Position numbers and translations under genes: made by a program. Positions 35,690 through 62,743 of a stretch of DNA of 64,000 nt are shown here, one piece after another (positions within the stretch are counted from its first letter, which is position 1; every line of letters starts with the position of its first letter). The notes under the pieces are model-generated. The model was given only the letters and a program-made list of their open reading frames with translations, did not search any database and was not told where the DNA came from. Location: contig JABSSW010000007.1 of the NCBI GenBank assembly GCA_018902385.1, positions 868,001-932,000 on the forward strand, given 5' to 3'. Source of the stretch: Physcia stellaris (lineage: Eukaryota > Ascomycota > Lecanoromycetes > Caliciales > Physciaceae).

Positions 35690-38600
35690 CGTTGATTTCA
35701 TGCATCGATCGAAAAATTTTTGATTGATTAAACGACGATCAAATTCGAAAACATCAAATTGAATTCACAACGAATTTATCGTCATTTAGTGTCGTCAATA
35801 AAATGCATATTGTTTATTTTAACGATCGTCATTTAGTTTTTCAAAAATTCAAAAAATCAATATCGACGTCGATCGATAAAAACGTCATTTATCGTTCAAA
35901 CGAACGTCAAATTCGAACGCACGATCGATCATTCGATTTCGATGAAAACGTTTTCAAAAAACACGAAATTTCACATACACGATTCGATGATTCAATGAAT
36001 TCGTCATTGTTTCGAATTGATGTTTCGAATTCATTTGTTACGAAATGAAAAAAAAAAAACAAATACGACATGAAATTCACACGTTTTACACGATTTCACG
36101 AATCACATACGTTTTATTTTTTTTTTTTTTCATTTATACGATTCAAATTTTCAAATTCAAATATCACAATGATTACGTCAAATATCATTCACAATTTTGT
36201 CGTTTTCATTTCAAAATCAAAACAATATTTCAATTGAAAAATCGACGTCAAAAACGATTTTCGAATCAATCATGTTAAATAAACAATCAATTTATCAATA
36301 AAATCAATGTTTATCGTCGAATTTTTACACAACAAAAATATCGATTAAAATTTCATCGATACAAAAACGAAAATCAAATTCACGAATTTCATCATCGTCG
36401 TCGAAAAACACGAACGAAATTTGAATAAAATTTTTTTTATTTGTTCAATGCAATGAACGTCAATTATTGTTTTTTTATCATTGTCATAACGAATTCAACA
36501 TCATTGATTTATTGAACAAAAATAGCAAAACGTTTCAAAAAAAATATTTTCGTTTTTTTCGTCGATATCATTTTCGATTTCATTGATCGATTTGTTATTT
36601 TAGCGAACGTCGAATTTTACATCAAAGTCGTTGAATCATTACACAATCAACTGATCATCGAAAACGCTGACTCGAAACTCACTGTCGACGTATTCTGTCA
36701 GAATATTCTGCTGTTCAAAATGCACAAATTAACTCATCTCAATTATTTCGTGACTCGTCAACGTGACGAGTGAATTTTCGAAAACACAAATCTCATCGAA
36801 ATCGAAATTCTTTTTCTGAATTTCGTTAAAATCATCATCGATACGATAACAAAATCAAATTCAATTGCATTAATCGTTAATCGTTTCGAAAAATTTAAAC
36901 GTATTCGTTTCAATACATCAAAATTTGAATACATCGATTTTTTTACATCAATCAAAAATGTATAAACAACGATTTCATCAAACATGATTTTGAAAAATGT
37001 TATTATAATCATTCAAAAACGCTTTCAAAAATGAATTGATAAAAACATGTTTGATCATTCATACGACAAAACTTTGAAAAAAATTCAAAATTTACAATAA
37101 CAATCAACGTCGTTGATTGAATTTTGAAAACAAATTTTGTTCATTAATCATTCAATCAACGATATGTTGTGATACACAAATTCGAACGTCAATATTCACG
37201 TGTGCAAAAATCGAAATTTGATACATTTTTTCATGTTTCACATCGAACATGTTGTAATTGCAAACAAAATTCGTTTCATTGTTGAAAAAAAAATCAAATT
37301 ATTGCTCGTTTTTTTTTACAACAATGCAAATGATCAATTCATTGATTTGTTAATTTTTTACATGTCAGATTCGTCAACAAATTTGTTGTCAATATCAACA
37401 TTCGAAAAACAAAACGTTTATTGAAATATTGAAAATTACATTTTCAAACATCAAAGCAAATCAATCGAATATGTTTTTTTTGCAAAACAACGAATTATAC
37501 GTTTTGAAATTGCAATTACATCAAATGATTGCATTGTCAACAACATCATCATTGTCGTTTATCGTATGACATCGAAATTTGAATCACATGAATTTTTTTA
37601 TTTCGTCAATATTTAAAAAAATTGAATCATTTTTATCAAAACGATTGCAAAAATAATCATTGCGATGTTTGCAAACTAATCAAAACAAAAAAATCGAATA
37701 AAAAGAATATTCATCATGTCGAAAAAACGTTTCATATTATTCACATTGATTTAATATCAATAACGATCGAAAATTTTGAAAATGAACGTTATTACATCAA
37801 TATCATCGATGACAAATCACGTTGAACGAAAATATACATCGTCAAAAACAAACACGAATGATTACAATGTTTTATTAAATACATCAATTGAATCAAACGT
37901 CAATTCGATGTTGACGTCAAAATCGTACGTACAAATTATGACAACGAATTTCGCAACACGCAATCAATTAAGTATTTTGACAATCAAAACATTGAATTCA
38001 ATTCAATTTCAACAAATGCTCAAAACGTCAATGATGTAATCGAAACACATCAACGCATTTTCATCATTATAATCAAAACAACGTTATTGACGAAAAACAT
38101 ATCGAATTTTTTGTAATCAAACATCACACATGCAATGACGTATATCAAAAATCGACGTTCAATTTCGTATTTTGAAAATCAATCATCGTTCGAAAATATT
38201 TACGAACAATTTTCGAAATTGACGAACATGTATTCATTCGAATCAATCGTTTACGTTGTTATCAACAAAAAAATCAAAAATCATTTGAAATCGAATGTCG
38301 AAAAAAATTTTCATCGAATATGACGATGACATCATTTATCGAATTTACATATCGATTAGTCAAAAAATCGAACGCGTCAAAAATTTCGATATTTATAATC
38401 ACAAATCAACATCAAAATTGACATTGAATTGAATGAAAATCTTATCGAATCAATTGTTGATTTAACAATGATAAATTTTTTGTTATTCACATTGAATTCA
38501 TTGCAAAAACAAAAAATTCAATTTTAAATTTTTCAAAACATTGAAATTCGATCACATATCAAAATCAAATTTTCAAATATCATTATACAAAAATCAATGA

Positions 38601-39621
38601 CGTCACAACAACAACAAAATTTCAAAAAATTTCACAAAATACGTTACAATGCGCTCAAACAAAAAAACAATTCGAATAAATTTTTTTATGAATTTTATCG
38701 TTTACAATGTCATAATTTTTGTCAATTTCACGATGTTTCATTTAACAATACGTGAATTGCTCGCGAATTGAAATTCAAATTCAAATGATTTAATCGTTTT
38801 GTTCGACAACATTGTTGATTTTCAATCAATTTCAATTGCAAACGTTGAATTTGATACAATCAATTTCGTTTTATTGTTGATCGATTACGTCGAAAACATC
38901 GACGTTTTCTCGTTTGAAAAATTCATAACAATGTTGACGATTGACGAGAAAAATCAAATAATTACAACGACGTTGCACGAAATTTTCACTTTTCACAATG
39001 ATTAAAAACAATGCAAAAAAAAAAATCTCGACTTTTTATCGAAAAATCACATTTGAAATTTAATAAATTTTACGTTCGATGAAAAAATCGTTGAACGATA
39101 AATGAATTTACAAACTCAAACGCAATGTCGCTGACGTTGTAATACGATACAAAATTAAATAATGCGTCAAAGAATTTTTACAACAATACGACATTGATTT
39201 TGATTAAATTTTTGTTTTCGTCGTCAAATCAATGATTTTTCGAATTTTATTCGTCGTTGTCGTTTTTTTTTGAATCTAAAAATTGAACAAATGAACGTGA
39301 AAATTGCGTTTCTATACGAATTCATTGATTCAAACATTTACGTTAAATATTCGATTGAATGTGACAATGACAAAGTTATTTGCAAATTGAACAAAATATT
39401 GTATAATTTGAAACAATCATTCAAACTATGATATAAACGTTTGTTCGAATTTTTTTACAAAAGTTAATTTTCAATTTTTTCGACGCGAATCAAAACATAT
39501 TCGTCACGAATGTTGATTTCAAGAATTTTATCATCATTACATAAATCGATGATATATCAAAATCATTGTTTTCAATAAAATCATGACTAATAAAACAAAA
39601 ACGAAATTCAATAGCGTTTTT
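35690..39621 (+). mobile_element. Copia A, dead, left part
   Basis: Very AT-rich remnant with Copia order on the plus strand: gag-like DNA at 35.8-37.0 kb, protease region at 37.1-37.45 kb, integrase zinc-binding and core similarity at 37.62-38.33 kb (HCDVCKLIKTKK, FHIIHIDLI, INIIDDKSR) and reverse transcriptase similarity at 39.28-39.62 kb (KLNKILYNLKQS). Broken by a very large number of changes. It ends where gypsy 1 starts, so the rest was displaced or lost. Oldest layer. Confidence 0.7.
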
Positions 39622-39848
39622 TGTTACGAGCATGTTTGACAAATAAATTTGACAAATAAATAGTTGATATGATATGATCGAACAACGAATTATGTTTTAA
39701 TTTTACGTCGAAATTAGCGTGATTTGAAATTTGACGTCGCACATTGTTTGCAATTTCAACATTTTGTATTTATTTGTTTTTGCAAACTTATTGTTTTCGT
39801 CTAATTAGTCAATAATACGTTTATTCAAACACGATTCATGATATTACA
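39622..39848 (+). repeat. 5' LTR of gypsy 1
   Basis: Pairs with 48,113-48,345. TG start and ..ATTACA end. Confidence 0.75.
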
Positions 39849-42800
39849 ATAAATTTTCAATTTTTATCGCTCGTCGTGATACGCGAACGTTCAAAAATAA
39901 AATTTCAAATCGATCAAATTTTTCGTGAAAAACAAACGACGAAAAATTTTTCTGACGAAACAAACGACGAAAATCGTGTAATTACAAATCGAATTTACAC
40001 GCAAACGACGAAATTTTCGACGATAAAAAACGACGAAACGACGACGATTTTTTATTTTTTTTTTTATTTTTCGAAATAATTCGCAATTATCATGAAACAA
40101 TTTCATTCAATTCATTTCGTCAAAATTTGAATATCGACGAGATACAAAAAAACGTTGAACAAATGTTGAAAGAAATTCACGAAATCGATGAAAAATTCAC
40201 GATTCGTTACAAATTTCGTCAATTTTTTTTTATTTAAACGTTGTGTCGAATCAAAACGACGATATCACGCATTTTTTGAACATAAAAATCGTTCGTCAAT
40301 TGAAATATTGAATTCAACATTATTTCAACGATTTTTTGAACGTGTTCAACGATTTACGTATCGATCGAAACAAATATTTAATTATTTTAAAAAATTTTCA
40401 GCAATTCGTCAAGTTGTTCAAAATTCAAAAACAAAATTTTTTTGATATCGACAATATTTTTGAAAAAATACGCGACAAATTTAAAACGTTAAAAAAATGA
40501 AAAAAAACGAATTATAAATCAATTCATTGACAAACGTATCGAATACGATTTGATCAAATCGAAAAAATTCGTCGTTTTGAACGTGTTTTAATTTCGATTC
40601 AAATGAAAATTCAAACAATATCGACGATAACGAAAAAAATCTGTTGTTGACGATTCGATCGTTACAAATTTTGTCAAATTTTCGAAAAAAAAACGCACGA
40701 ACAAACATTCGAATTTCGATAAATTCACGAACGATGTGAATTTTGATTGATTTACGTGAAAAATTAACGTTCACGATAAATTCACGATCAACAATGATTG
40801 ATACGAAATTGTTCGATTCATAATCACGACAATAATCGATTGAATTAAAAAAAAACAATCAAACATATTCAATTTCGTCGATATAACAATTTGAATTATT
40901 TCGAAAATAAAATAATGATAATCAATTTTTTCGAAAACATTTATGAAAATTCAAATTATCAACGCAACGTACGTCGAAAATATCGAAATTTAATCATGTT
41001 CGACATTCAAAATTTTCAATTTTTTTATTCGAATTTTTATCGTTTGAATATTCAAATCAATTTCGATGAATTCACGTTGATAAAAAATTTGATTGACAAA
41101 TTTATCATGTCGTTGAAACAAATTTTAAACAATTCGTTTCGTCATTATTTTTTTTTTTTTTGTTCGCATGAAAAAATGACATTCAACAAATATATAACGA
41201 TTGATCAACATTCGAAAAAAAAAATTTCGAATTCGAATTCAAAAATTAATTTTCGTGATTTTCAAATCGACGTTTGTTGTTTCGATTGCAATATCGTTCG
41301 TCAAATCAATTATATCGACGTTTTTTGTCAAATTTAAAAACGATTATAAATATGATTCGATTATCGATCAATTGATTGTCACGAACAAATATTTTACGTG
41401 TAAAAAATTCGATCATATTTGAAAATTCTGTTTCAATGTCAATAAATTTCAAAAACGTTAATGACATAAATTACAAATGTATCAATTGAATTTCGATATT
41501 GATTCGAGCGAATTTGATTCGAAAAATTGACAATTCACGTCAAAAACGCGATTGATGAATGTTTAAAATTTTTTTTTATTTACGATAATAATATGTTTGA
41601 CTTTTTCATCAAACGATTTTTAATTATTATTTGTACGTTATCATTCAACGATAATAAACATAAATTAAAAATTTTAATAAACATTGATGCAATTGATTAT
41701 GCGTTCATTGATAAAAAAATCGCGCAATTTGTATGCAACATGTTGAACATGAAATTCGTATTTTTATTGAAATCGAAATCATTGATTGAATTCGACGATC
41801 GTCATGTTTTTTTTATAATTCACGCGATATATTTCAAATTGACGATAAAATTACATTTCGAATTGATCGTTTTTTTGTTAATCATTGATTTTGATAATCA
41901 TTCGATAATTTTAAAAAAATCGTGAATGAACAAACATGAAATCATATTGAACATGATTTACGATAAATTGATTTTTAAATCATTCAAATGTAATCATCAC
42001 GACAATATATTCAATCAAACGATTCAAATTCGTCGATTGAAAATTTTCAAATCAAATCGTCGATGAAACGTGTTTAATTGACGTCGCGATGCAATATTAT
42101 CGCAAAAAAATGATACAAAACACATAACGACGATGAAATTTCGATATATCATTTTGTTTCGTTTCAAAATCAAATTTTTATTTTTTATTGTTAAAAACGA
42201 ATTTGATATAATCGATTCGAAATATTTCGAATATTCAATTCATTCAAAAATCGATATCGACAACGAATCGTCAACAATCGAATCAAATAATTCAAAATTG
42301 ATATTACGATTGTTACGAAAACGACATTCGTCAAAAAAAAAAAAATTGAAAAATCAACGTAATAAATGATGAAAAACGAAAAACAACAATCAACGTTTTC
42401 GTTATTTTCAAAATTGAATTTTGACGATTCGATGAATATCGCAATGATTGATGCAATTTTTTTTTGTTTGTTGATCGATGTCAAAAATCGAAAATAAAAC
42501 GTTCAATGTTTTTTCATTACGATCAATCAAATCGATTTCGCGTTCAAAACATTACAAACGAATTTTGAATCGTTAAAAATCGTCGTTATAATCAAAAAAA
42601 TTTTAAAACACGAACAAATCAAATCGATATTCGAACGCATAATGAAAAAAATGTCAAAATATTTTCGTCATTTATCAAAAATATTTGATTTTCAAAAAAT
42701 TATCAAATTGTTTTTTTATAAATTATACGATTATAAAATCGAATTGTTGAACGATAACAATTTTTTGTTTCGCAATCGAATGTATTTTTTATTCGAATTC

Positions 42801-44298
42801 AAATTTAAAAAATTGAAAAAAAATTTGAAAAAAAATTTGCAAAAAAAATTTATCGTATTTAATCAAACGACATATGTTTTATTTGTTTTATTTGCGATTA
42901 AATTTAACGATCAATTACGTTTGTGTGTGAATTATCGTCGATTCAATCACATTACGAAACGCAATCGATATTTCATTTTTTGATTGAAAAATTTTGATCA
43001 AAATTCAAAATTGCAAATATTTGATCAAATTGAATATCATATCAATTTTCAATAAATTTCGAATAAATAAAAAAAATGAAAAATTTATCACGTTCGTCAT
43101 TTTTATAAAATCGTATAAATATCGAATATTATTTTTTGAATTAATTAATGATTTTGTTAATTGACAACATTACATAAATGATTTTTTGTTCAATTTTTTA
43201 AACGAATTTTGTTAAATTTATTTGAATGACATATTCATTTACAACAAATTCAAAAAAACATATCGTGCACGTTCGAACAATGTTGAAAAAATTCAAAAAA
43301 ATCGATTTACAAATGAATATTAAAAAATGCGAATTTTTCAAAAAAAAAAAATGATTTTTTTGAACGTTATATTTTCGATAAATGATTTTCGCATGAATTC
43401 AAAAAAAATACAAATCATAATTGATTGAACACGTTTTATCAATTTCAAAAAAATACAAATTTTCGTGAATTTCGTCAATTTTTATCGACGTTTTATTTGT
43501 GATTTCTCGAAAAAAATCAAAATTTTCATTCGAATAATCAAGAAACTCGTAAAATTCGAATGAATTACAAAAACAAAAAAAATTTTCAATTTATTCAAGA
43601 AAACGATGATCGAAATTTTCATATTTCGTTATTACGATAAAATCAAACAAATTATTTTAAAAATCGATTTTTCAAATTACGTCAATGCGAAAATGTTATC
43701 GCAATACGATGACGAAAAAATTTTACATTTTGTTGTTTTTTACAATCGAAACATGATTTCAATCGAATGCAATTACGAAATTTATAACAAAAAATTATTG
43801 ATCATTATTCGTTGTTTAAAACATTGACGTTCAAAATTCGAAAATATTGACGAATCGATCAAAATTTTTATCGATCACAAAAATTTGAAAATTTTCATAA
43901 TTTCGAAAAAATTAATTTTTCGTCAAATTCGTTGAACAAAAATTTTATCGAAATTCAATATCGTTATTCAATTTCAATCAAAAATTCAAAACGTTAAAAT
44001 AAACGTTTTGATTCGCATGTCGAATTCACGATTTAAAAACGATAACGACGAACGACATCAATATAAAAAACAAATGTTATTCATTTTCGAACGATTCGAA
44101 ATTTATGTCGTCGAATTTAACGAATCAATTTACGAACGAATTTTCGTCGTCAACAAAACAAACGACGATTACAAAACATATCGTAAAACGTTCAATCAAA
44201 AATTTATTTTCGTGAATAAAATCAATTTACGCGATTGTCAAAAAAACGATATTTTATATTACAAAAATCGATTATAAATGTTCGTCGATATTTTTTAT

Positions 44299-44580
44299 TT
44301 GTTGACAAGTAGATTCGAAGTTTTTTTAAAAAAACTTTGTTTGAATTGATATGAAAAATTTATTTTCATCAATTTGTATGCGATCAAAACTTCGCATTTC
44401 AATAATTGAAATTCAACAAATATTCAGCATCAAATTTCTTTCAAAACTTTACAATTTTGACTACATAGACGAAAATCATATCAAGTTCTTGATTGATTGC
44501 AATGTGCGAAGAAATTATTGATGTTCTTCGCCAAGATTTCTAATCCAATAAGATAGTAACTTTTTGAAGAGAAAACGATA
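44299..44580. mobile_element. 282-bp insert with 11-12-bp target duplication
   Basis: The sequence GATATTTTTTAT flanks it directly at 44,287-44,298 and 44,581-44,592, and the gypsy 1 integrase region resumes after it. The insert keeps CT and AG pairs that the surrounding DNA has lost, so it arrived later. It starts TTGTTGACAAGTAGATTCG and holds a palindrome-like AAGTTTTTTTAAAAAAACTT. It is too short to code. A duplication this long suits a Mutator-type miniature element better than an LTR, which is inference. Confidence 0.6.
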
Positions 44581-46295
44581 GATATTTTTTATAAAATGTG
44601 TTCTATTTTTTCAAAAAAATTCATGAATTTTTCGCGTCGAATTATTTTGAATTTAATCGCATGAAAAATTTTTTACGTCGTAATTATTATTAATTCAATA
44701 TGCGCAAAACAATTCGTCAATACGTACGTAATTGTCATAAATATTAACGAATTAAAATTTTTCGAAATCGTAAAAACGATTTATTCATTTTTTTGATTAT
44801 ATTTTTACAACGTTGAACAAATATATCAATTAATTTCGTCACGAAATTATTGAACGTTCACGATTATAATGTCATTTGCACGATAATCGACAAATTTAAT
44901 AAAAAACGTCATTATACATTTTGTACAACGAAAAACGAAAACACGAATGTTAAAATCACAACAAAAATATTTATTCAATACGTGTTTCGTATTCATAATT
45001 TTTTTTTTTCATAATTTTTGATTGAAATTTTCAATTCGTGTTTTTTGTATGACAAATTTTTTGCAAAATTTTCGATATCAAATGTAAATTTTTCACGATT
45101 TTTTATTCAAAAATTGATAATTAAATCGAAAAAATCAATCAAAACATCGAAAAACAATTGCGACAATATTGCAATTACATGCAAAACGATTGAAACGTTT
45201 AATTATTTATAATCGAATTCGCAAACAATAACGCGATTTTTGCATTTATTGAATTATTATCGTTTTTCGTCAACAAAAATTTTCATTTTCGTATGAATTT
45301 TTCATCGAATTTTATTTCGTATGTTATCACAAAAAAACAATTTTTGATTGTCAAAACGAAAAACATCACAAACACAATGCAAAATATTTTCGATTATGTA
45401 CGAATTCACGTCGAAATAATTCAAAAACATATAACGACACAAATTAACAAACATCGCAAAATCGTGAAATACGTCGAAAAAAATTACGTTTTTTTGAATC
45501 GACGAAACATCAAAATCGTTAAATCATTCGACAAATTTGATGACAAAAAATTAAATTCGTACAAAATGTTAAAACGTATAAACAATTTTTATTAATTTGA
45601 ATTGTTTGAAACAATGCGAATTTATGATGTGTTTCATTGTTAATTTTTTCGCAAAAATTTTTGTAATTTTTTCGAAAATCAAATTAACGAATCATTCGAT
45701 TTTGTTATAATCAACGAGAATTTCGAATGAAAAATGAACGATATTTTAAAATTTCGATATTATTACGATCGTTTTCAATATCGCGTCAATTGATCGAATT
45801 GATCGTATAATCGAATTTAATATTACGTCGATAACGATAAATTCGATAATGTTCGTGACGTAATAAATAATTATTATCGAAATTATTTTATCGTCGCAAA
45901 TTCGAAATCATTCAAAATTACATTTTTCGTTTTTTAAATCGATGATCAAAATTCATTTGCGAATCGTCGTCGTTTTCGAAAAAAATCGTCGTTTTTTTAT
46001 TCATTGAAATTACGTTCGATTAAAATTTGAAAATTTCAATTAAATTTGAATTTATTTTGATTTCATTCGTTTGTTTCAAAAAAATTTTTTCAATTTCAAA
46101 TTTCATTATTATCGTTTCGACGTTGTTTACAATCAGAATTTACGTCGCATAAAAAACTGAATCGTGTTAAAAATATTTTCAGAAATTGTTGTTCGATTTT
46201 ATTGAATTGTGAATTGATGCAACATATTGAAAAAATCAAAAAATAATAATCGTGAAAATTTCGAATTTCGAATTTGTTCAAAACAATCGACAACG

Positions 46296-46453
46296 TGTTA
46301 GAGACTGTTCCAGAGACGTCACGTGACAGTTTCAATAGAACTAGCGGCGTCAAGGCGATCATCGCGAGCATGTAAATATCTTCTCGCACACATCCTGCTA
46401 GTGAATCAATCAATATTTATCCAACCACAAGCAGTTCAACTTTCGTTGTAACA
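46296..46453 (+). repeat. 5' LTR of short LTR element
   Basis: 158 bp with TG..CA ends, pairs with 47,900-48,050. Confidence 0.9.
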
Positions 46454-46685
46454 ATTGGTAGCATCATCTATACGATGTCCTCCGTCTAGTTACTGTGTAA
46501 CGTCCATTTGCTGTGCAATATCTAGCCCCCGTGGAGCATTCAGTCGATGCCCGACGATAACGGCCTCAGTTGCTCTGCAACACCCATTCAGTCAGAAAAC
46601 ACCTACCTACTCACCTACCTATCCATTTACCTACCTACCTCGAGTCCTCCATCCATTTCGCCAATATCCTACCTATTCGCATATC

Positions 46686-47813
46686 ATGGCCTCAATCCCG
46701 CCTTGGTCCTCCACCTTATGCGACTGTTTCGCAAGTGGCCTCATGTCCGATATGGCCGCCTCCAAAACCCCTCAACGCATCTACCAAATCCACCGAGACC
46801 ATTCCCTTTGCTGCAAATGGTATCTGCAAGTCGAGCGAACCCGCGATACTCATGCAAAGCAAACCCGACAAGCCGAGCAAGCCCGCCTGACCGAACAACA
46901 ACCAGTTCAGGATCTGAGCGCTCAGATAGTCGAGAATGTCATGAACTCTTGGCAGAGCACCTGGAAGAAACTGGTACAACAACAAGCCAAAGAAGTCCGT
47001 CTAGAAAAGGAGCGTCAAGAAGCCGAAAAGGCCAAAGCAGAAGCCTTTGCATGCAGGCGTTGCCCTGCGAAATATCCTAGCAACACCAAGCTTCACGAGC
47101 ATATTCGCGATCACCATGCGAAGAAGCCGAAACCTACTCCTCCTCCTACACCTCCTGAATCGATAACCTCCCTACCTGATAGCCCGAAGCCTGCACCGCA
47201 GCCGAAGGCCCTACCTACTCCACCTCCTTCACCTCCTCAATCGGTAATCGCCTCACTCAACTCCACTCCTCCAACTTCGATATCCTCACCACCTTCTACA
47301 CCGAAGCGAGTCACCTCACCGAAACGCTCACCTCTCTCGGGTTCTGCACCAGAATTCGTACCCAAGCGCTCAGAGAGTGCTCCGCTTACTCCGCCTCCTT
47401 CGCCTCCTCATACGCCTGCTGCAATGCAGTCAACACCCCCCTCCAAATCGACCTCCAAAACACCTTCGAAACCCTACCTGACGGTAGATGATCTGTTCCG
47501 CATGTTTGCTGGGAAGCCTAAACCAATAGGCCTGCAACAGCACCAAAATCACCAATCCTCCCCGCGCACCTTTGGCACTCCGAAACGAGGCCCCATGCAA
47601 ATGCGCATAACCTCCTACTTCCTACCCGAAATCGACGAAATCCGAAGCCTCCACATCAGTGTATGGTTCGGTCAAACAGTCGGCCCGCATTTCACCTCCG
47701 CGGTCTCCTCCATCTCGACCTTCTCCTTCGGTTCGATCCTTGTTCTCGACAAGCCCCTATTCCTCTCCTGTCTGCTGGCGCTGTCAAGGACCTTCCGCCA
47801 CCTATCTGCCTAG
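46686..47813 (+). CDS. C2H2-finger gag-like protein of short LTR element
   Basis: A 375-codon frame from the ATG at 46,686 (MASIPPWSSTLCDCFASGLM). The open frame continues upstream to 46,455 but with leader-like Pro/Tyr/Thr content. Residues 60-125 are helical and charged (coiled coil). A single C2H2 finger follows around residue 120 (CRRCPAKYPSNTKLHEHIRDHH), then a long Pro/Ser/Thr-rich stretch with repeated PTPPPSPPQS-like segments, and finally a short conserved-looking YLTVDDLFRMFAGKP. Between LTRs such a protein most likely plays the gag or RNA-binding role, which is inference. No enzyme motif is seen. Confidence 0.7.
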   Translation: MASIPPWSSTLCDCFASGLMSDMAASKTPQRIYQIHRDHSLCCKWYLQVERTRDTHAKQTRQAEQARLTEQQPVQDLSAQIVENVMNSWQSTWKKLVQQQAKEVRLEKERQEAEKAKAEAFACRRCPAKYPSNTKLHEHIRDHHAKKPKPTPPPTPPESITSLPDSPKPAPQPKALPTPPPSPPQSVIASLNSTPPTSISSPPSTPKRVTSPKRSPLSGSAPEFVPKRSESAPLTPPPSPPHTPAAMQSTPPSKSTSKTPSKPYLTVDDLFRMFAGKPKPIGLQQHQNHQSSPRTFGTPKRGPMQMRITSYFLPEIDEIRSLHISVWFGQTVGPHFTSAVSSISTFSFGSILVLDKPLFLSCLLALSRTFRHLSA

Positions 47814-47899
47814 CAATTGGACTGGTTCCATTGCCGCAAGAGCTGGGATACCTATGGGACGACGAGGGCGCCGTCTTTTCGTTTAAAAAGTGGGCATAT

Positions 47900-48050
47900 T
47901 GTTAGAGACTGTTCCAGAGATGTCACGTGGCAGTCCCAATAGGGCTAGCGCCGCCGCAAGGCGAGCATGTAAATATCTTCTCGCACACATTCTGCTAGAG
48001 CATCAATCAATATTTATCCAACCACAAGCAGTTCAACATTCGTTGTAACA
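47900..48050 (+). repeat. 3' LTR of short LTR element
   Basis: 151 bp, pairs with 46,296-46,453. A short A/G-rich run (AAAAAGTGGG) before it is the likely polypurine tract. Confidence 0.9.
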
Positions 48051-48112
48051 CAACGTTTTAATTTCGAATCAACGACGAATCGTCGAAACGACGTTCGCGA
48101 AAAAAAAAATAA

Positions 48113-48345
48113 TGTTACGAACATGTTTGACAAATAGATGTTTGACAAATAAATAATTGATGATATGATATAATCGAACAACGAATTATGTTTTAATTTT
48201 ACGTCGAAATTAACGTGATTTGAAATTTAACGTCGCACATTATTTGCAATTTCAACATTTTGTATTTATTTGTTTTTGAAAATTTATTGTTTTCGTTTAA
48301 TTAATCAATCAAGACAATTATATAAACACGATTCATGATATTTTA
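48113..48345 (+). repeat. 3' LTR of gypsy 1
   Basis: Pairs with 39,622-39,848. The right edge is uncertain by a few bases. Confidence 0.7.
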
Positions 48346-50382
48346 TGTTTAAATTATTGTTCAAACGATCAATAACATCAATCGTCATTCAAAATTTCGA
48401 TTCGAATTTTACACACAAATTTTGAACATTTGCGCACATTTTTTTATCAAATTGAATGCATTGTTTGCGTTAAATTTTTCAAATCGAGTTTTCATATTCG
48501 AATCGACGTTATTTTCGATGAAATTTCATTGTTGAAAATTATGTTTTTACATTAAATTTCATTTTTTTATTAATTTATTGTTAAATTACATTTGATTCGA
48601 ATGTTTGATTATTCGTTTATTTTGTTCGTTGTTCAAACGTTTGATCGTTTGTTGATATTTTCGTATCGTATAAATGAAAATTTGAACGAAATTTTGAATT
48701 CGAAAATCGTGTCATTAATTCGTTTTTTACAAAACAAATAATTGATTTCGTTATTTTTTTATTACATATTTTTTGTATTTTTCATTGTTCGTTGTTTTAT
48801 TTTCAATTTATTTTCGATACATATATCAATACATTTTTTTGTCTATTTTATTTCATTGTTTGTTTCGAAATAAATTATACGATCGTCATTTCGAAAAAAT
48901 CAAACAATTGACGCATTTGTTTTCGTCGTCGTTACACAATTGTTTATAAATTTTGACAATAAAAAAATGCATGAAACGAAACAAACACGATAATCATTTT
49001 ATATTATTTTTTTAATAAACGTATTCAAATCAAAATGAAAAATCATTCGATCAAATTTTTGATTTACATCAAATCATTATATCGTTTCGAAAATGATTAT
49101 TTTTGAAAATTTGAAATCAAAAATCATTTTCAATTTTTAAATGTTGAATGAATTATTACGAAATTTATACGAATTCGTTTTATCAAAAATTTCATCACAA
49201 ATGAAATCAAAACGAAAAATTATACGAACGAACATGTCGTCGTTAAAACGTTTGATTTGAAAATCGTTCAAAATCGTCATGATTTTAAAATCATCAAAAC
49301 ACATAATTTTTTATTTAATTTCGTGCATGTTTCATATCGTTTCATTATTTTGAATTAAAATATTTTTTTGAAACGTTGAATCGTTATTGTATTTCAATTC
49401 AAAAAAACATTCGTTTTCGTTATAAATATCATTTTTACATTTTTAAATTTCAATTCAAAATCGAATGACGTTGAATCGTTCGTCGTTGTCGTGAAATTTA
49501 TTCAAAATGATTTTATCATTATGAATGTCGAAATTTTCATTATTATATTTGTCATTTGTCAAAACATTTTGTTCGTCAAAATGAAACACGTTCATTTTTT
49601 TTTCGTTCAACAACAACGCAACAATTGAATCGAATTCAATACGAACGTCAATAAACTTTGTTTCGAATTTCGTTATTATGCAAAAATCGTTCAATTTTTC
49701 AAATTCGTCGTCATGATCACACAGATTTCGAAATCGTCAAACAAACGAACACGTATTCACGATGATCAAACGTTCATTTTCACGTCAAAAAATTTCAAAT
49801 ATGTGAAATCATCGTGATTTTTTTTTAAATACGTTGAAACAAATCAAATTCATCATAATTTCAAACGATGTTTTTGACAAAATTTCAACATTGCATACAA
49901 AAATTGACTAAACAAAAACATGTTCGATTACGTTAAAAACGAAACGAATTGACAATTACAATCGATCGTCAATTGAAAACGTGTTTTATTGATTGTTCGA
50001 ACGATCAACAACATATTGTGATACGTTGATTCGAAAACAAATATTCACGTTTGCAAAAACAAACATTTTATTCAATCATTTCGTTTTCACGAATTTATCG
50101 TTTTAATCGTCGATAAAGTTCGTTTTTCGATTTCAAATTTGAACATAATACAATTTTTTATCGTTTTATCAAATGAAAAAATCATTGAAATTTTCATTTT
50201 ATCGATGTATTACATGTTCGATTCGTTTGTCAATTTTTTTTCGATATTTGTTTTCGAAAAACAAAATATTCATTGAAACACATTCGATCACGTGTTTAAA
50301 AATCGTGATGTTTTTGTTGTTTGAACGTTTTTGAACGAAAATGATTTTTATGCAATTATGTTGCAAAACAATCAAATAATTG
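48346..50382 (+). mobile_element. Copia B, dead, left part
   Basis: AT-rich, heavily mutated DNA. From about 49.9 kb it aligns by eye with Copia A 37.0-37.45 kb (both share a GTGATACxxxxxATTCG core and a following GTTTTCGAAAAACAAAA-like run), which marks the gag/protease part. The left edge is unclear: 48.35-49.0 kb may be the end of Copia A or an LTR. Interrupted at 50,383 by gypsy 2. Confidence 0.55.
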
Positions 50383-50579
50383 TGTAAGAATGTAAGCATT
50401 GCGTGATTAAAATGTGCGAATAATAATATTAATTGTTATGATAAATGCTAGACACATAGTAAAATTAATTGCTAAAAAAACAGAAAAAAATTCGTGAAAC
50501 TTCGAATATATAAACACGAAATGCGACAATTAAATTCGCAACGTTTTAGCGTTCGTTTGATCGATTTCGTTTCATTACA
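50383..50579 (-). repeat. Left LTR (3' LTR) of gypsy 2
   Basis: 197 bp, pairs with 57,709-57,905. A TATATAA-like box lies inside both copies. Confidence 0.85.
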
Positions 50580-51699
50580 ATTGTTTTTTTTTTGAATGAT
50601 CGATTTTTCGTGTCAAATATCAATGTCTTTATAACATATCAGAAATGTATCGTAACAACGTTGTTTTGTAAATAATTTTGTGCTTTCGACGTGTAATCTT
50701 GAAACACTGTAATTCAATAAATAGAAATAACAATAACAATATAATGCAATTTCAAATATCGCGTTCGTGTTGTGAAATCGAGTCGAAATGAATCGCGTCG
50801 TGTGTTGATGAATGTTTATTTCAGTTTTTCAATTCATTTTCTGAATTTTTTTCTCTTAACATCTTTATTTCATAACATAATAAATATTTCATTTGATTTT
50901 TTTGTTTTTGCGATAACAACAATTATTGCGACAATGATGTCAACATGATATATTGTTGTCTGTACAGTTATCACATCGTTTTTGCAAATGATAATGTTGT
51001 CGCAATGATGTTTCAATGACGACGAAATTGATTTTCGAACGTCGACAATGCAATACGTGTGTTAACAACGCAATAGATCATGACGTCGTTTTTTTTGCTT
51101 TTTACATTTCGCAAATCGTTTTTTGCAATTTTCGTTGTAAATGTATTGCTTATGATGCTTGACGTTGTTGATTGATGTTAAATTGATAAACTTTTTTCTT
51201 TTGAACAATTGAATGAAAATACGACAATTCAAATGTTTTTTTCGCGTGACAATCGCGAACGCATGTTGTCAAAATTTAATAAACAAACACGCATAATTGT
51301 TTCGAATCAATGTTAATGTATGACAAAATCAATTCATTTCTGATGTCAACGTTGCGTTCGAAAGTTTCGTACAAATTCTAAACACGTTTGCGAAGTTTCG
51401 AAAAGTAACAAACGCGTCAAATGTCAATTCTGTAACAAAAACTCGCATTATTGCGAGAAAAACATGATTTTTTCGCAATTTCAAATTACTGTTCGCGTTT
51501 TTGCTGTTCAAAATAGCGCTCAAAACAAATTGAAAACAATTTTGAAATTTTGAAAAAATAATAACATGCAGATTTTGTGCGTAACGTAATTAACATGACG
51601 CAAAAACGAATCGAAAAAACTCGTTGCTTTTTGTTTTTATCGCGTTTCGCAAAATTGTTGCAACAATTACATCAAAATTTGTCACAAAGAACGATTTTC

Positions 51700-51930
51700 T
51701 GCTCGTTGTTTTTTCGTTTTCGTTTGTTTCTGCGCTTGTTCGAAAGCAAATCAAAATTTTTTTTGTTTCGTTTGCTGATTTTGATTTTGATTTTGATTCG
51801 TTTCGCGTTGTTTTTTTTTCGATTTTTTTCGTTTTCGATTCGTTTGCGTTTGTTTTCGATTTCGTCTCGTTTGCGTCGCAAACAAATTCGTTTGTTGTCG
51901 CGTTTGTTTTTGCGTTTGTTTTCGCGCAAC
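51700..51930. repeat. Low-complexity GTTT/TCG-rich stretch
   Basis: Short units such as TTCGTTTGTTTTTGCG repeat with variation. Open frames occur in several phases on both strands, giving Lys/Asn/Ser/Thr/Glu-rich or Phe/Leu/Arg-rich products. They are composition artefacts inside the 3' part of gypsy 2. Confidence 0.6.
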
Positions 51931-54900
51931 AAAATCGCGTAATACATGATAAACAACGTTTCAATTAAACGCGACGACAATTAACATGACGCAATCGAAA
52001 TCGATTTGATTGTTGTGATTTGAATTTTGATTGATGAATTTATCGACGCGCTAACGTACATTTTCGTGTTTTTGAATTCATTAAATCGCATATTTGATGT
52101 TAATTCTATTTGTTTCTGTGTTTGTTTGCGCTGAAATGTTAAAATTTGTTTGTTTTTGTTGTGACGTGCTGTTCTGTGATTTGCTTGTTGAGATTTACGA
52201 ATTTCAATATATTTTTTATAGCATCGAAATGTATGCAAACTGCGCATGTAATCAAGAACAATTCACAATATCATTTTATTGTTTGTGTTTTTGCGTCGCA
52301 ATTACTGTTATTTTTGCTTTTTGAATCGTTCACGTTTTTTCAGTTTTAAAAATTGACGTGTCTGTTCTTTTGTTGAAAATTTCTCGCTCGATTTCGTTTT
52401 GAATTTGTTTGTTTTTCGACGTTTCGCAGTTTTTTCAAATTTGCGTAACTCGCGCGCATTTTCGAATTTGACAATTGCGTTTTTCGCATTTTCGAGATGT
52501 TTCATTGACTTTCACGAGTTCTCATATGACGATGAATTTATTCATGCAATAAAATATTCAGACTGATTTTTTCTAATGCGCTTGTTTAGCATCTGCGATA
52601 TTTTTCATTTTTTTTTTTTCGTTTTTCATTAATATTGATTGCGATTTTGAATTTGCGTCGTCACGACTATATCAAAGTTCGAGTAAAAAAACATGAAACA
52701 CAGAATATATGAATTCATATTGTTTAAACAAATCAAATTCGTAAATTTGCGTATCTATTTTCTTGACAATTTCAAAAAAATTCAATTGTTTATGATCAAT
52801 TTTTTCTTGAAACGCAATGTGCGTATATTGATTTCACGTAACAACATTTTTTTTTCAAATTCAAAGTTTTTCATTATATGATTTTCATTATAATATTTGA
52901 CTTGCTGTTCGAAAATCGTTTTTCACAATTTCATTAAATGCGCTCGATTGCTTCGCAACGTTTTTGCTCTGTCTGTTGCAAATGCTTTTTTTTCTTTGAA
53001 AATTGTTCACAGAATCGTCGTTTAATGTCGCAACGTATTCAGACAAAAATTTTTGAAAAATTTGATCAATGTTTGAATGTTTGCTATTATTGTAAACAAA
53101 TTGTGTCATAAATAGCAATTCTGATCAATTATTTTGCTTGAAATTACAATACATTCGCAAATAATGTTCGAACACAACATTTTGTTTTTTTGTTTGCTCA
53201 TTTGTTTGTGAATGAAAAACAATGCTAAATTTACGTTTCGTTTTCAAATTTCAGCACAAAGTAAATCAGAAATTGCTTGTGAAAAGAAATTTTCGATTTG
53301 AAATAATGCTACGCATCGTTTCATGACGACATACGAATTTTCGTCATAGCAAGTTCGCAAGATTTATCGCGTTTAACGTTTTTGTGATTGTTATGTACGT
53401 TGCGTATTTCGTCAATTTGTTTATCAATATTAATATTGAATCGTTAGTTTTTTCAGTATAAAAATTTCTAGCAAAAAACATATTTGTAATGAAATTCATG
53501 ATAATTGTATCAAATGATTGTTTTTCATTTGATGAAATTGCTATTATATCGTCATAAAATTTATGTCGATGAATTCGCATTCGTTGACAATTTGAACAAA
53601 TGCGTACATAATTTGTTATTTTTTTAATCATGTCAAATCAAAAATATTTGCGTCGCACAACATTTTCGATTTTTGTTTGCGCAAAATGTTCAACATTTGA
53701 ATCGTCATGATTCATACGAAAAATTTTTTGTTTTGTAACGAAATTTTCAAACACATAAATTGCGAAATCACGACGAAACAATTCATTTTTTTCAACATTT
53801 CATTTCGAAAATTCGTTTTGTTTGTTTGCGTATTTTTGACGTCATTGTTTTTCAACAACAAAAGCGTTTTTTTGCTGTAATTTGAATAATCACGCAATCA
53901 TTGATTTTCGCAATTTCAAATAAAATTTTTCGATTTCATAATTTGATGAACTAAAAGTCGAAATGCGACAGTGTTTAGAATTTTGCAAGCACATTTATCG
54001 AGAACTTTCTCATTCGAAACAATATTTCGAATATTTGTCGTAACAGTGTTACGCAATCGCGCTGTCGATGTTGCAAATTTGATTGAAACAAACACACGTT
54101 GATCGTTTTGCAAATCAGATTGATAATTTTGATTGCGAAACTTGTTTCGCAAAATAAACAAGAATTTATCGTTGTTTTTGTCGTTATCGTTCGATTTCAT
54201 AAAATCAAATTTTTTCGACGACGCGTTCGCAAAATTCAATTTGTTTTTGCGATATTTTATATTGAAATCAAACGCAATTAGTTTTTCAATTCAGCGAATC
54301 TGTTTCGCATTGAGTCTTTTGATTGTCATAAAATATCGAAAATTGTTGTGATCAAAAATAACGCGAATGAAATGTTTGTTATTTTGCAAATAATGTTTTC
54401 AATTTTTGAAATCAAACATTATCGCATACAGTTTCTTGTCATGCGTATTTCAATTAATTTTTGTTTTTTTGAACTTGTAATTGAAAAACGCAATGAAATG
54501 TCATTGATCGTTTTTGTTTTTTTGATTGAACATATCATTTGTTTCGCGATCAGAAACATCAGTTTTCATGCGTAATTTCGTTTTTCAATCATAATGCGTA
54601 AAAATAAAAGCAGTCGTGAATTTAATTTTGAACTCGTTGAACGCAATTTTAGTTTTTTTCGTCATAGCAAACGAAAAGCGATTTTTTTTTTTTCGCATCA
54701 CGCGTCAAATTCGTAAATAATGTTACGATTTGCGAAAATTTTTTAACAAAACGTTTATAAAATTCAACAAAATTTAGAAAAATCATGATATTTTTCGCAT
54801 TTTCGAATTCAAATCAATCGACGATTGCGTTTATACGCAAACGTTTCATTTGAATATCATTGCGCTCAACAACGAAATTTAAAAAATTGATTTTTTTTTT

Positions 54901-57708
54901 GTTGAATTCGCATTTTTTCAACTTGACATACAAACGATAACGTAACAACGTTTTGAACATCAAACGAACATGTTTTCAATGTTGTTGTTCATTCTCAAAA
55001 TAAATCAGCACATCATTCAAATACATCACGCAAAAAACGTCAATGTATGATTTCAATGCTTCATTAACATAAGATTGAAAAGTAGCAAAAACGTTAACAA
55101 AATCGAAAAACATAATTTGATATTCATATTGTTCATAGTGAGTACGAAAAGCAATTTTTCATTCATTTTTTTGACGAATACGAATTTTATGATACGCATT
55201 TCGAATGTCTATCTTGATGAAATGTTTAGCATTCGCGAAACGTTTTAGCGTTTCAAACAGCAACGACAATGAATAATTGTTTTTGATCGTGATTTCGTTG
55301 AGTTTTCGATAATTCACACATAAACGCAAGCTGTCATCTGATTTTTTGACAAACAACACAGATGTTTTCGTAAATGCGTTGAAAAAACGAATTCATTTTT
55401 TCGTCAACGCGTTTTCGAAATAATTGCGTATAACAATAAATTCGTCATGCGACATATTGTATATAAATTCAAAACGCGATTTCTTGTTTGATTGCAAATC
55501 GATAACATGCTCGATTTAATCATGCGTATTCAAATTGTTCGACAGCGTTTTGAAAAATATTTCGATTACTTTTTTGATAGATCAAAAATGTGATCGTTGC
55601 GATTCACTTGTAACGCATTACAACGAGCAACATTTCGTTTTCGATATTGATAATTCTGTGTTAAAAAAAAGCATTTGATATGACATTGCGACATAAACAC
55701 GATCGCGATTCGCAATGACAATCATAATTAAATCAGCAAATTTTTCGCAAAACAAAAACTGATTGAAATTTGCTTGAATTTTCATAATTATCATCACGAT
55801 ATAGTCAGCGACGATCATATCAACGAATGTCAAAATCGACAACATTCAATCATGAATATTTAAAAATCATGTCGTATTCACGCATGTCGATCGTTCAAAA
55901 ATCAACATTTTGTTTTTATATGTTTTTCATTATTTCGTGTCATGATATGCACGTTTTCATGATGTTCATATATTTGAATCACACGATCGTCAACAGTTTT
56001 TACATGCTGTTTAGCAATTTTTTTGAATTCAGACAATTGCATTTGTTTGACAAAAATTTGTGATATAAAATTCGTTTCGACATCAAAATCAATCAAACAA
56101 ATAATTGTTGTATTGTCTGTTTGCGTAACAAATGTCTTGATTGATAACGTGATTATCAAAACACGAAATTTACTTCGTTTTAAATTTATTTTCAATGTTT
56201 CAACGACAAACATCAGATTCGTTTTTTTCGACGATTGATTTTGATTTTGATTGCGTTTTTTTGAATTTGCGCATAATTTTCACACACAAAATCATTTGCT
56301 ATGTGATTCGATTTGTGACATGAAAAACATGTGCGTTTTTCGAATTTTGAAAATGCGAAATTGTGATTTTGATTTCGATTTTCATTTTTTTTTTCATTTT
56401 GTTGATTTTGTTGCGATTTCGAAAATTGATTTTGATTGTTTTTGAGCGTTGTCAGATTCAGCAAATCTGTTACGCGAAACTTTTTGTTTTTATTTTTGTC
56501 GTCGTCATTGTCATTTTCGTGATTTTTCTGATCATTTTCATTATTCTGTTTTGTTTTCGTAACATTGTTCGACGATTTATTTAAAATATTATCGTCGACG
56601 AGCAATTGTTTCGCAATCAACAAATTGACGATTAATTTGAAATAAAAATCGATTTCATGATTTCGCATTTTTACACATTTGATGCGAATGAAAACATGAA
56701 TTTTGATCAGCAATTTTTTTTGTCGTTTTTCGTTCGAAACGTGACGTTTCAGTTTGTTTCACAATTTAATTAAATATTGATTGAACGCAACAATGCTTTG
56801 TCGAAACAATTGCTTGATATTTTCAATAACAATAATCGTGTTCATGACACGAATCATCGAATTGTTAAGCAACGTCAACAAATAATTTTTATATTGTTTT
56901 CATGTTTGTTTTTCAGATTGAACATCAACATAATTACGTCATTGATTTTTTTTTGTCGTCATCAAGAACGACGTCGATCAGTTTGTTTTCATTTTTTCTG
57001 TTTGAAAGTTAACAGAATCGAAAGCGATATACTTTTCGCAATCACGCAATCAGCTTTTCAGATTGTTTCAATTTTCACATTTTTGCGTGTTTGAAATTTT
57101 TGATCGTGCGATTCGTTTCTTGATATGCGAGAACGAATTTTCATATTGATCATCGCTGTTGCGACGACGACGACGATTTCGATCACGTTTCGTTTTCGTC
57201 TTGATCAAGAATATTTTAAAATCATTGAGTTTTGATTCAGTTTTCAGCATTTTGATACGCATTTTCATTTGTTTAAAAATCACGTTTGAATCGACAACAA
57301 CAAACACAACGACATCGTTATTTGACGACAACGAAACAAAATCATTTTTTCGTTGTGTTTCATTTTGACTAAAATGCGTAACAAATGTTGAATTGAAAAA
57401 TTGATCAACATTTGAAATCAAAAATTCGAAAATTGAAATGTGTTTAATTGAAACGTCGATATCATTAAAATCGACAAAATCATTGTTTTTCATCAGAATT
57501 TTCGAATTGAACATCATCGAACAATTCAATAATTCGATTGATAAAAAAGAAAACATAAAAAGATTGTTTGATGAAATGATGTTTGATTGTGATGCAATCG
57601 ATACGATCGCACGATCACGAGTCTGCGAACGAGTTTCGCGACGACGAAACGCATTTGTTGAGCTGAACATTTTTAATCGAGCAATTCTTGATGTAAAGCA
57701 ATTAAAAC

Positions 57709-57905
57709 TGTAAAAATGTAAACACTGCGTGACTAAAATGTGCGAATAATAGTATAAATTGCTATGATAAATGTTAAACACATAATAAAACTAATTGCTA
57801 AAAAAACAAAAAAAAATTCGTGAAATTTCGAGTATATAAGCACGAGATGCGACAGCTAGATTCGCAGCGTTTTAACGTTCGTTTGATCGACTTCGTTTCA
57901 TTACA
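57709..57905 (-). repeat. Right LTR (5' LTR) of gypsy 2
   Basis: 197 bp, pairs with 50,383-50,579. Confidence 0.85.
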
Positions 57906-59330
57906 AATTGTTTTGATTATTGTTTCGTTTATTTCGCTATTTACATGACATAAACGATTGAAACATTTTAATTATTTTGTTTTTCGAATATATTTTAAAT
58001 TTTTGCAAATCAATTATGTTGACGACGTTTCGAATAATCATTGCGATATATGCAAACAAATCAAAATTAAACGAAAATTCAATCGAAACGAAAACATCAA
58101 ACGAATTTCAAAATTTTTTCACATCATACATATTGATTTTGTATTTATTTCGATATTCGATTACGAACAAAAAACGTGTTATATCACGTTTATTTGTAAT
58201 TGATGTCGAAAAATTGATGTTTATACGATCAAAAACAAAACAAAATAAATAATTCATTTTTCGATTTACATTTTCATGATTGAAAATCAATATAATGTGA
58301 AAATCAAAATCGTCAAAATTGATTATAATTTCGAATTTCGCAATATCAAATTCGATGCATTTTTGATTTTCAAAATCATTTTATTCGAATTCGTTTTTAT
58401 CGACGTTCAAAACGTAAATAAAATCGTTGAAATTTATTAACGTACAATTATAATCATGATTCAAACGACGTTATTTGATAACGACATATTTGATTTTTGT
58501 GATCGAACGTCATTTTAATCATGACATATATCAAAAACGTCGTTTTTCGATTTTTTTTTTTGACGACATAAATTTTATCGAAAAATTTATCGACATTGTT
58601 TCAAATTTTTTTAATTTACATTCATTTAAAATCATCGTTTACGTTGTCAAAAATTCGAAACACAAAAATCATTTCGAGTTTCGCGATGACAAAAACATTT
58701 TTATTGAATACGACGACGACACGATTTATCGTGTATGAATTTCATTTTTTAACGACAACGAAATACGCAAAATCAAAAACGTCGATTTTTACGATGTCGC
58801 AATTTTCAAACAATACACGATTTTTAACGAAATCATTGCATTTGAACAAAAAAAATGTTTTATTATTTCAAACACAATTTCAAACGTTATTGTTTCGAAA
58901 ATTATCATATTCAAAAATAAATCGATCATTTTTCGCAAAATCAAATTCGCATCAAAAATTTCACAAAATATATTTTCAATCATTTTTCATAAATTTATTA
59001 TCATGCGTTCAAATCGTCAAATCAAACAAATTAATTTTTTTATGAATTCATTTGTTTATTCGATTATATCAAACAATACGACAAAAATATTTAACGTTGT
59101 TATAACAAAATTATTAACAAATTGAAAATATTTTTTCGACGATTTCGTCGTTTTTTTGAATTGTATCGACGAAAATTTTATTTTCGTCGAACGTTTTTTC
59201 GAATAATATAATGATTCATGCGTTGTCAATTCAATTTTATTGTTAATTGATTTTATCGAAATTCAAAACATCATAAATTTTGAAAATTTCGTTGTTTTCA
59301 ACAATATAAATGACAACGAATTCAACACAT
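57906..59330 (+). mobile_element. Copia B, dead, right part
   Basis: Copia integrase similarity resumes at once after gypsy 2, at 57.96-58.74 kb (NHCDICKQIKIKR, FFHIIHIDFVFI), matching Copia A 37.62-38.33 kb. It shows the strong mutation signature and ends at about 59,331, where CT and AG pairs reappear. This supports one Copia B copy split by gypsy 2. Confidence 0.65.
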
Positions 59331-61315: not shown

Positions 61316-61444
61316 TGCAGTTTGCACATCAATCATCAATCACATGAAATTTTGATTTGTTGACATTCAATTATAGAACAGATTAAACGCATTTCAATGA
61401 ATCAAAAATAACGAAAATCGATTCATTGACGCAAAAGTTATGAT
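61316..61444 (+). repeat. Direct repeat copy 1, ~129 bp
   Basis: Shares TGCAGxTTGCACATCAATC, a GCGCATTTCAA-like block and an AAAATCGATTCATT block, in order, with 62,744-62,871. Confidence 0.55.
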
Positions 61445-61499
61445 CGATGTAAATTATATGTTTTGTTGAAAAACTTGTCGAATGATCGAAATCTCGCAG

Positions 61500-61552
61500 A
61501 ATCTCATTTGTTTATTTATCTATTTATCTATTTACTTATTTATCAACTTGCT
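61500..61552 (+). repeat. TTTA/TCTATTTA microsatellite
   Basis: Short tandem units of ATTTATCTATTTATC type inside the insert. Confidence 0.7.
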
Positions 61553-62743
61553 CATCTGCACGTTCGTTATGAAAGATTTTCTCGATTTTGATCTGTGTAT
61601 CAATGTCTTTTCACGAGAACAAGTTTTTAGACGCGCGAAAAAGCGAAAAATGCGTCACAAACAACAATCGGATTCTCGCTTTCGATTTACTTTTTACTCT
61701 TTCTTTTTCTTTTCTTTTTCTTCTTTTTTTTTTTCTATCGACGATTGAAATCATCTGCTCGAAAAATGAATGTTTCAATCAACAAACAATTTTTTATCGA
61801 ACATAATGTCGAACAGTACATCGACAATCTGTTCGATTTCGTCAAAAATATACTTTACTCAACTCGACGTTTCATTTTCGATGTTTTTTCATTGAATGAA
61901 AAATTAAGAAATCGATCGAAACGATTGATTGAACACGTTCAGATTGAAATTAGACTTGCAAAAACTGCATGATTAATTCATACAATTCTTGATGTTTTCG
62001 AATTCATGAATTTCGATCGAATTCTCAAAACTCGATACAACATCATTAAAAAAAATTTACTCAAAGTCATCGTCAATTCAAAACGTTGCGATGAGTTTTA
62101 CAGACAAACTTTTCACGATGTCGACGACGAGAAAATTGAAATTGCAATTCGTTTTCAAATCGAATATCATCGAGCGACTATTGAAGTCGAATCAGAAAAC
62201 AACAAAAAAATGCAAAATGATTCGAATTGAATATTTCTAAAACGTTTCAAGAAACGCAAAAAATGAATCATGATCGACTTTCTCAGAAAATCATTCGTGT
62301 ATGAATCGAAATTATTGAAGACGTCTTCAGTCAATTCGACTTTTCTGAACAGAATACGTTCGTATTTGATCAATATCAACGTTTTTCGTTTTCGTCTTCA
62401 GCGAAAACAGTTAAATAATCTCAACTTATCAGCGTTGTTGAAAATCTGCGAGAAAAAAAATCATATTGCAATTTTCAAAAGTCAACATAAATACATAGAA
62501 TCGAAAATGATCGATATTAAAGCTAATTCAAATTAAAACTCTATCGCGTTATATTCAATCGAAAATCATGATATGTTTCGAAGATGTGCTCAAATGACTG
62601 CAATTTCTGCAATTCAAACTTCATGTTTGACATTGAGACTTTTCAAGTTACTTCAGATTTGCGACATTTTTTCTCGATCTGACTAACTCAAAATCTATTT
62701 GACGATCAATCATCAAAAATGTAGTTTGTCGTTGCAGTTGATT

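Follow-up and report, generated by a model that had tools for sequence, protein, structure and literature searches.

Repeat-associated C-to-T hypermutation at CpC and CpT, with CpA and CpG largely spared, in Physcia stellaris

What kind of process removes cytosines from fungal repeats when a pyrimidine follows and leaves them nearly untouched when a purine follows? The question is raised by a 64,000-nucleotide stretch of the ascomycete Physcia stellaris, called the window below (GenBank assembly GCA_018902385.1, 43.97 Mb in 147 contigs; contig JABSSW010000007.1, here C7, positions 868,001-932,000), for which the original prediction, made from the letters alone, proposed a non-canonical system resembling repeat-induced point mutation (RIP). 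As far as sequence comparison can carry the point, alignments demonstrate near-saturating C-to-T change at cytosines followed by a pyrimidine (CpY), on both strands of copia, gypsy and ribosomal DNA (rDNA) copies. The agent is probably a repeat-directed mutator of the RIP type, with the order of targets CpC > CpT >> CpA, CpG.

Dinucleotide composition of the window

The skew is most extreme at 35,690-46,290 (10,601 bases, GC 25%), regarded in the original prediction as the oldest layer, where 1,411 of 1,465 cytosines are followed by a purine (A 771, G 640, T 52, C 2). The complement, G preceded by T or C, holds as well, with no GpG and 45 ApG among 1,194 G, and two counts made by hand prove exact: 7 C at 40,981-41,040, of which 4 precede A and 3 precede G, and 17 C at 42,181-42,300, of which 8 precede A and 9 precede G. 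When the bases of this interval are shuffled 1,000 times, CC, GG, CT and AG average 203, 134, 519 and 471, and even their lowest values (163, 99, 464 and 426) lie far above the observed 2, 0, 52 and 45. CpA is retained and TpA is not extreme (odds 1.34 and 0.43), as had been claimed, whereas the genic control at 1-35,000 is ordinary (CA 1.14, CC 0.97, CG 0.85, CT 1.03, TA 0.67). The CpY fraction, defined as CpY plus its complement divided by all C and G contexts, lies at 0.45-0.66 per kb in the control as against 0.00-0.10 at 36,001-46,000.

The depletion is thus real and stronger than first described. Two details of that description change: CpT and CpC, said to be erased, are both depleted, CpC harder than CpT; and the skewed interval, given as 35,690-59,330, runs on to 64,000 and encloses a segment at about 46.3-48.05 kb that is not hypermutated. 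Across 48,001-64,000 the CpY fraction is 0.00-0.23 per kb; at 59,331-64,000 CpC is still near zero (CC 3, GG 2) and CpT more mildly depleted (odds 0.60). Standard RIP indices (thresholds 0.89/1.03) pass in none of the 41 hypermutated 1-kb windows, with TpA/ApT at 0.43-0.45 and the substrate index (CpA+TpG)/(ApC+GpT) at 1.33-1.34. The features on which the following sections draw are these (loci elsewhere in the genome carry L numbers; RT, reverse transcriptase; LTR, long terminal repeat):

1-35,000, no strand: genic control DNA with ordinary dinucleotide content, used for odds and CpY fraction
18,815-23,557, plus: unmutated copia open frame of 1,580 aa with normal CpY; L012 and L013, at 95-96% identity, differ from it with no CpY bias
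35,690-46,290, no strand: hypermutated block 1
37,563-39,616, plus: decayed copia element, 79% identical to L010, with an RT piece at 39,279-39,500 (RVT_2, C7:907279-907500)
41,449-44,187, plus (strand taken from that of L044): decayed gypsy-type element, 63% identical to intact gypsy L044 over 2,745 columns
46,296-48,050, plus: unmutated small LTR element inside hypermutated DNA, with 157-base LTRs and an open frame beginning near 46,686
48,060-64,000, no strand: hypermutated block 2, reaching the window end, with CpC near zero throughout and CpT depletion fading towards the end
53,374-56,850, minus: decayed gypsy-type element L058, with RT at 54,874-55,350 (RVT_1, C7:922874-923350 minus) holding two TGA

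Direction and sequence context of mutation

Repeat copies were sampled genome-wide by profile searches, which give 137 matches to RVT_2 and at least 150 to RVT_1 (a lower bound, 150 of 527 candidates having been scored). Sixty RT loci were fetched, the best 30 of 137 RVT_2 and the best 30 of the 150 RVT_1 listed, each with at most 1.5 kb of flank per side; taken by best score, they lean to less decayed copies. Their CpY fraction is 0.001-0.308 at 49 loci and 0.432-0.516 at 11. Changes were polarised by taking an intact or less mutated relative as reference, and C-to-T was scored by the base 3' of C. The copia pool holds 16 comparisons, three against the intact 3.7-kb locus L009 and 13 against L010, itself lightly mutated (CpY fraction 0.43); the gypsy pool holds 11, all against the intact L043. 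Kept out were copia comparisons against L011 and L021, both part-mutated, the unmutated copia trio L012/L013/L024, the gypsy pair L044/L045 and the older gypsy pair L057-L070; for the remaining fetched loci a less mutated partner fit for comparison was lacking.

The two pools agree closely. C-to-T change affects 3,911/4,074 CpC (96%), 4,271/5,162 CpT (83%), 452/6,386 CpA (7%) and 155/5,116 CpG (3%) sites in copia, and 4,315/4,449 (97%), 4,008/4,663 (86%), 322/4,451 (7%) and 143/4,121 (3.5%), respectively, in gypsy. Pooled counts are not independent, since copies share history; taken singly, all 27 comparisons rank CpC first and CpT second, with CpA and CpG far behind. Within the window, the copia element at 37,563-39,616 gives the same picture against L010 (CpC 134/137, CpT 221/243, CpA 21/299, CpG 6/228). 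Expressed as minus the logarithm of the unmutated fraction, the pooled rates of CpC, CpT, CpA and CpG stand at about 45:25:1:0.45. The C-to-T process with a CpY preference that had been predicted is therefore borne out, and CpA-to-TpA, whose dominance would have spoken for ordinary RIP, is a minor change. Canonical CpA-directed RIP is ruled out by the 7% at CpA and the low TpA; so is CpG deamination, CpG conversion being 0-9% against L009, L010, L011, L021 and L043, with the one higher value, 12%, coming from the older pair L057-L070 (CpC 0.82, CpT 0.62, CpA 0.20; 182 transversions).

Premature stops carry the same signature. Among the first 30 matches listed per RT search, 50 of 60 contain stops, which comprise 157 TGA, 16 TAA and 3 TAG, and 9 of 10 matches to the transposase profile DDE_1 contain 44 TGA and 3 TAA. 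By the genetic code, the TGA excess agrees with CpC targeting, because TGG-to-TGA requires a CpC change on the opposite strand, whereas CpA-directed RIP would yield TAG and TAA instead.

The base 5' of the target matters little: conversion is 0.95-0.98 at NCC and 0.80-0.90 at NCT in copia and gypsy, and the copia values for ACC, CCC, GCC and TCC are 0.96, 0.98, 0.95 and 0.96. AID/APOBEC-type deaminases read the base 5' of C, and editing of that kind is ruled out. A DNA deaminase unrelated to RID and DIM-2 that reads the 3' base and attacks repeats would have a source in the genome, which encodes PF00383 deaminases (eight matches from 11 candidates scored, this being the only deaminase family searched); these look like an ordinary set, and with the 3' base deciding and the 5' base of little account this explanation is unlikely. 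The original prediction had pointed to unusual deaminases: deaminases are present, and the context counts contradict a 5'-base preference of the APOBEC/AID type.

The second base on the 3' side has a smaller influence. At CpA sites, CAC and CAT are converted at 0.09-0.15 versus 0.03-0.06 for CAA and CAG; at CpC sites, CCC (0.90-0.91) falls below CCA or CCG (0.98-0.99), as would follow were the second C frequently the earlier of the two to change. Where a dipyrimidine is followed by a purine its 3' C is kept (C-to-T at TCA 0.07-0.08, at TCG 0.03), and ultraviolet-type dipyrimidine damage is thereby ruled out.

The closest pair of copies is also the cleanest. Over 3,464 bases, L060 differs from L043 by 918 C-to-T changes, 1 T-to-C and 1 transversion, the former falling at 440/442 CpC, 452/463 CpT, 26/444 CpA and 0/411 CpG sites (rates CpC:CpT:CpA 90:62:1). 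On the scale of background mutation the burst is very recent, given how few other changes accompany it, and it hints at very recent activity of the system. L010 and L016 are likewise separated by 446 C-to-T changes, 1 transversion and 14 reverse transitions. Such bursts bear on a process in the manner of methylation induced premeiotically (MIP), in which repeats would be methylated at CpY and 5-methylcytosine would deaminate slowly and spontaneously, with no active mutator. The product expected is the same, C-to-T in one dinucleotide class of repeats, and cytosine methyltransferases are encoded; both bursts, however, far outpace background, and a process of this kind is quite improbable.

Conversion is graded among copies (CpT 0.60-0.98). 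Clustering of leftover CpT sites is clear (z > 3) for 4 copies out of 13 but not for the others, and losses of CpT and ApG, which report the two strands, are similar in most of the 13, one copy showing 0.67 vs 0.82. An artefact, with methylated repeat cytosines miscalled as T or converted reads entering the assembly, might mimic this specificity for context and repeats, which resembles methylation. Strand-specific miscalls in a consensus would hardly convert both strands by more than 95% at CpC, and the grading among copies, together with untouched genes and an untouched nested insert, also speaks against an artefact, which is very improbable.

The ribosomal DNA pseudogene and the ancestral state

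Elements that had lacked CpT and CpC from the outset would show the same depletion. This worry is answered for rDNA, where polarisation rests on the independent Rfam consensus. A 5.8S search (39 of 2,644 first-look candidates scored) returns one match, a hypermutated rDNA unit at C41:45,899-46,052 plus flanks (L008, L039, L040). Counted in hand-chosen, better-aligned blocks and at conserved (capital) consensus positions only, C-to-T reaches 61/67 at CpC, 36/68 at CpT, 1/63 at CpA and 0/56 at CpG; all positions of the first set give 102/151, 67/106, 12/96 and 24/130, blurred by species differences. The intact references have normal CpY, as does the rRNA consensus: CC+GG and CT+AG number 483 and 465 in L009, and 446 and 469 in L043. 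Ancestral absence of CpY, named beforehand as a finding that would overturn the idea, is thus ruled out.

Probable repeat targeting and a spared insert

Among the sequences compared, copies of transposable elements and extra rDNA are mutated, apart from the escaped repeats described below; the window's genic DNA is spared, and so is a low-copy insert. The insert, the LTR element at 46,296-48,050, is flanked by a 5-base target duplication, CAACG, at 46,291-46,295 and 48,051-48,055, and its open frame holds a C2H2-like motif (both by eye). Queried as 46,297-48,052, its next best copy in the genome is 83% identical, with 65 partial matches genome-wide. Both of its flanks are hypermutated and it is not, even though its LTRs have fallen to 86% identity, with six transversions in 157 columns. 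It may have been present before the flanks mutated and been passed over, or it may have survived there untouched for a long time; both possibilities oppose a regional process, whether of heterochromatin, replication or ultraviolet-type damage, producing C-to-T at dipyrimidines. Such a process would sit well with the AT-rich blocks in which the affected DNA lies, and it also counts in its favour that dipyrimidines lose their 5' C alone. With the 3' C kept before purines and the insert intact, it is barely credible. Six CpC-type differences between the 5' and 3' LTRs, bunched in the 5' LTR (by eye), perhaps reflect light mutation.

Candidate enzymes

The genome encodes the components that a RIP-type mutator might use. 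A PF00145 search gives four matches at three loci, each with PCQ and GN motifs, which answers the earlier suggestion to look for RID and DIM-2 homologues. One is a candidate DIM-2-type methyltransferase in a 1,118-aa open frame; the other two, C6:791,557 (L004/L042) and C5:499,307 (L006/L041), carry LEQT and MEET where ENV is expected, motifs resembling those of the RID/Masc1 class. At both, PCQ and GN lie in separate frames, presumably because of introns. A phmmer search of the PDB with one RID-like frame retrieves 43 sequences, mostly bacterial C5-methyltransferases, DNMT1 and DNMT2, and is uninformative on specificity. Profile searches also give one Pre-SET match and one MATalpha match.

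In the mechanism that these genes suggest, repeats would be detected through their homology, most probably at about the time of the sexual phase. CpY cytosines would be acted on by a cytosine-5 methyltransferase, either one of the two RID/Masc1-class candidates or the DIM-2-type one; the enzyme would now read a pyrimidine rather than a purine at +1, and the marked C would become T by direct deamination or via 5-methylcytosine. The association of CpY hypermutation with repeats is demonstrated by the alignments; what most plausibly lies behind it is a re-specified enzyme of the RID class. The fuller proposal, a repeat defence of inverted specificity (CpC > CpT, CpA and CpG protected) exerted by a re-specified or second RID-class methyltransferase, is favoured by a modest degree.

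Several observations weigh against a RIP-type mutator of this description. RIP prefers CpA, a preference that a kingdom-wide survey describes as common to RIP-like defences (PMC12543289; papers are cited by PMC number, each for its accessible part), whereas here CpC leads CpT and CpA is a minor target. Strong CpY depletion is lacking at 11 of the 60 fetched RT loci. The copia trio formed by L012, L013 and window 18,815-23,557 and the gypsy pair L044/L045 are only 3-5% apart and free of CpY bias; intact L043 coexists with mutated L060, while the classical model mutates both copies of a repeat. The RID/Masc1 assignment of the two loci is a candidate one, and both proteins have a BAH-like front part (by eye), whereas a review (PMC7862722) describes the class as being without BAH. 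The differences among the escaped repeats are mostly synonymous (gypsy, 129 synonymous vs 14 non-synonymous; copia, 61-64 vs 29-36), as would be the case in lineages that kept transposing, and it may be guessed that their escape stems from recent, mating-driven mixing of separately diverged lineages.

Comparison with known systems

The process appears to work as RIP does and to depart from it in the dinucleotide attacked. As in Neurospora crassa and other Pezizomycotina, C-to-T change in repeats is massive and found on both strands, it depends on the 3' base, rDNA copies are also mutated (PMC5555474), and the genome has candidate genes of the DIM-2 and RID types along with one for a Pre-SET protein and one of mating type; to this extent the RIP-like system of the original prediction stands, the CpA preference being the part that fails. 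RIP raises TpA/ApT and lowers the substrate index, whereas TpA falls here.

Published targets vary. Change is mainly at CpA in rRNA pseudogenes (PMC5555474) and biased to CpA in Mycosphaerella (PMC4522978); Monilinia combines CpA with CpC-to-TpT double changes (PMC8959702), and Sclerotinia Tc1 elements show CpA and CpG above CpY (PMC4188875, citing Clutterbuck 2011). A CpT component is common: CpA is joined by CpT in Botrytis, Sclerotinia and Magnaporthe, with CpT predominant in Magnaporthe and Botrytis T4 and a RID motif linked to the species that show CpT change (PMC4352252), CpA and CpT dominate in Anisogramma (PMC10998396), CpT exceeds CpA in Neurospora Tad1 (PMC2621366), and CpT-to-TpT is the leading form in the RIP-capable control fungi of an alignment study (PMC7882544). 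These systems share with P. stellaris a frequent, sometimes leading, CpT-to-TpT change; in them, CpA accompanies CpT (PMC4352252, PMC2621366, PMC10998396) and CpC does not lead, whereas in P. stellaris CpC ranks first and CpA almost escapes. Hypermutation with a CpG target, in Microbotryum and, together with CpA, in Aspergillus nidulans (PMC2621366), and with a CpG bias in Rhizoctonia, where CpC is the most frequent single class in a table of single-nucleotide polymorphisms (PMC4014442), is likewise RIP-like with a target other than CpA, but CpG is the best protected context in P. stellaris. No report of CpC-led RIP with CpA spared in repeats was found in the part of the open literature that was consulted.

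MIP proper is repeat methylation without mutation, whereas mutation is massive here, and the 5'-base preference of AID/APOBEC-type enzymes has no counterpart in the contexts counted above. That a cytosine-5 methyltransferase can be re-specified to CC, as proposed here, is illustrated by an engineered M.MpeI variant that methylates CCA/CCC after changes in the target-recognition domain that shift CG to CC (PMC10899764); that enzyme differs in being bacterial and laboratory-made, in methylating rather than mutating, and in being inactive on CT.

Implications

The genome contradicts the conclusion of a shared CpA preference (PMC12543289), and the contrast between contexts is nearly all-or-none. 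If the fuller proposal, a repeat defence of inverted specificity exerted by a RID-class methyltransferase, is true, the target dinucleotide of RIP would be an evolvable trait of the enzyme, and surveys based on CpA/TpA indices would have missed an active class of RIP. Other genomes may be wrongly filed as RIP-free, because the standard indices flag none of the hypermutated windows here. What sets the RIP target becomes testable, since natural enzymes with opposite +1 preferences could be swapped, and the system may be open to experiment, the clean pair L043-L060 suggesting very recent action.

Other observations

None of the fetched loci is a close and unmutated copy of the gypsy-type element at 41,449-44,187, and L058 is 92-94% identical to L047, L069 and L072, every one of them CpY-depleted. 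Scans of viral contigs gave no relatives of the copia protein and 0 stretches of functional fungal rDNA, and an Rfam scan of the window at gathering scores gave 0 matches. Outside the hypermutated blocks, two neighbouring open frames lie on the minus strand at 14,179-16,522; they presumably correspond to the NACHT and ankyrin parts of one protein.

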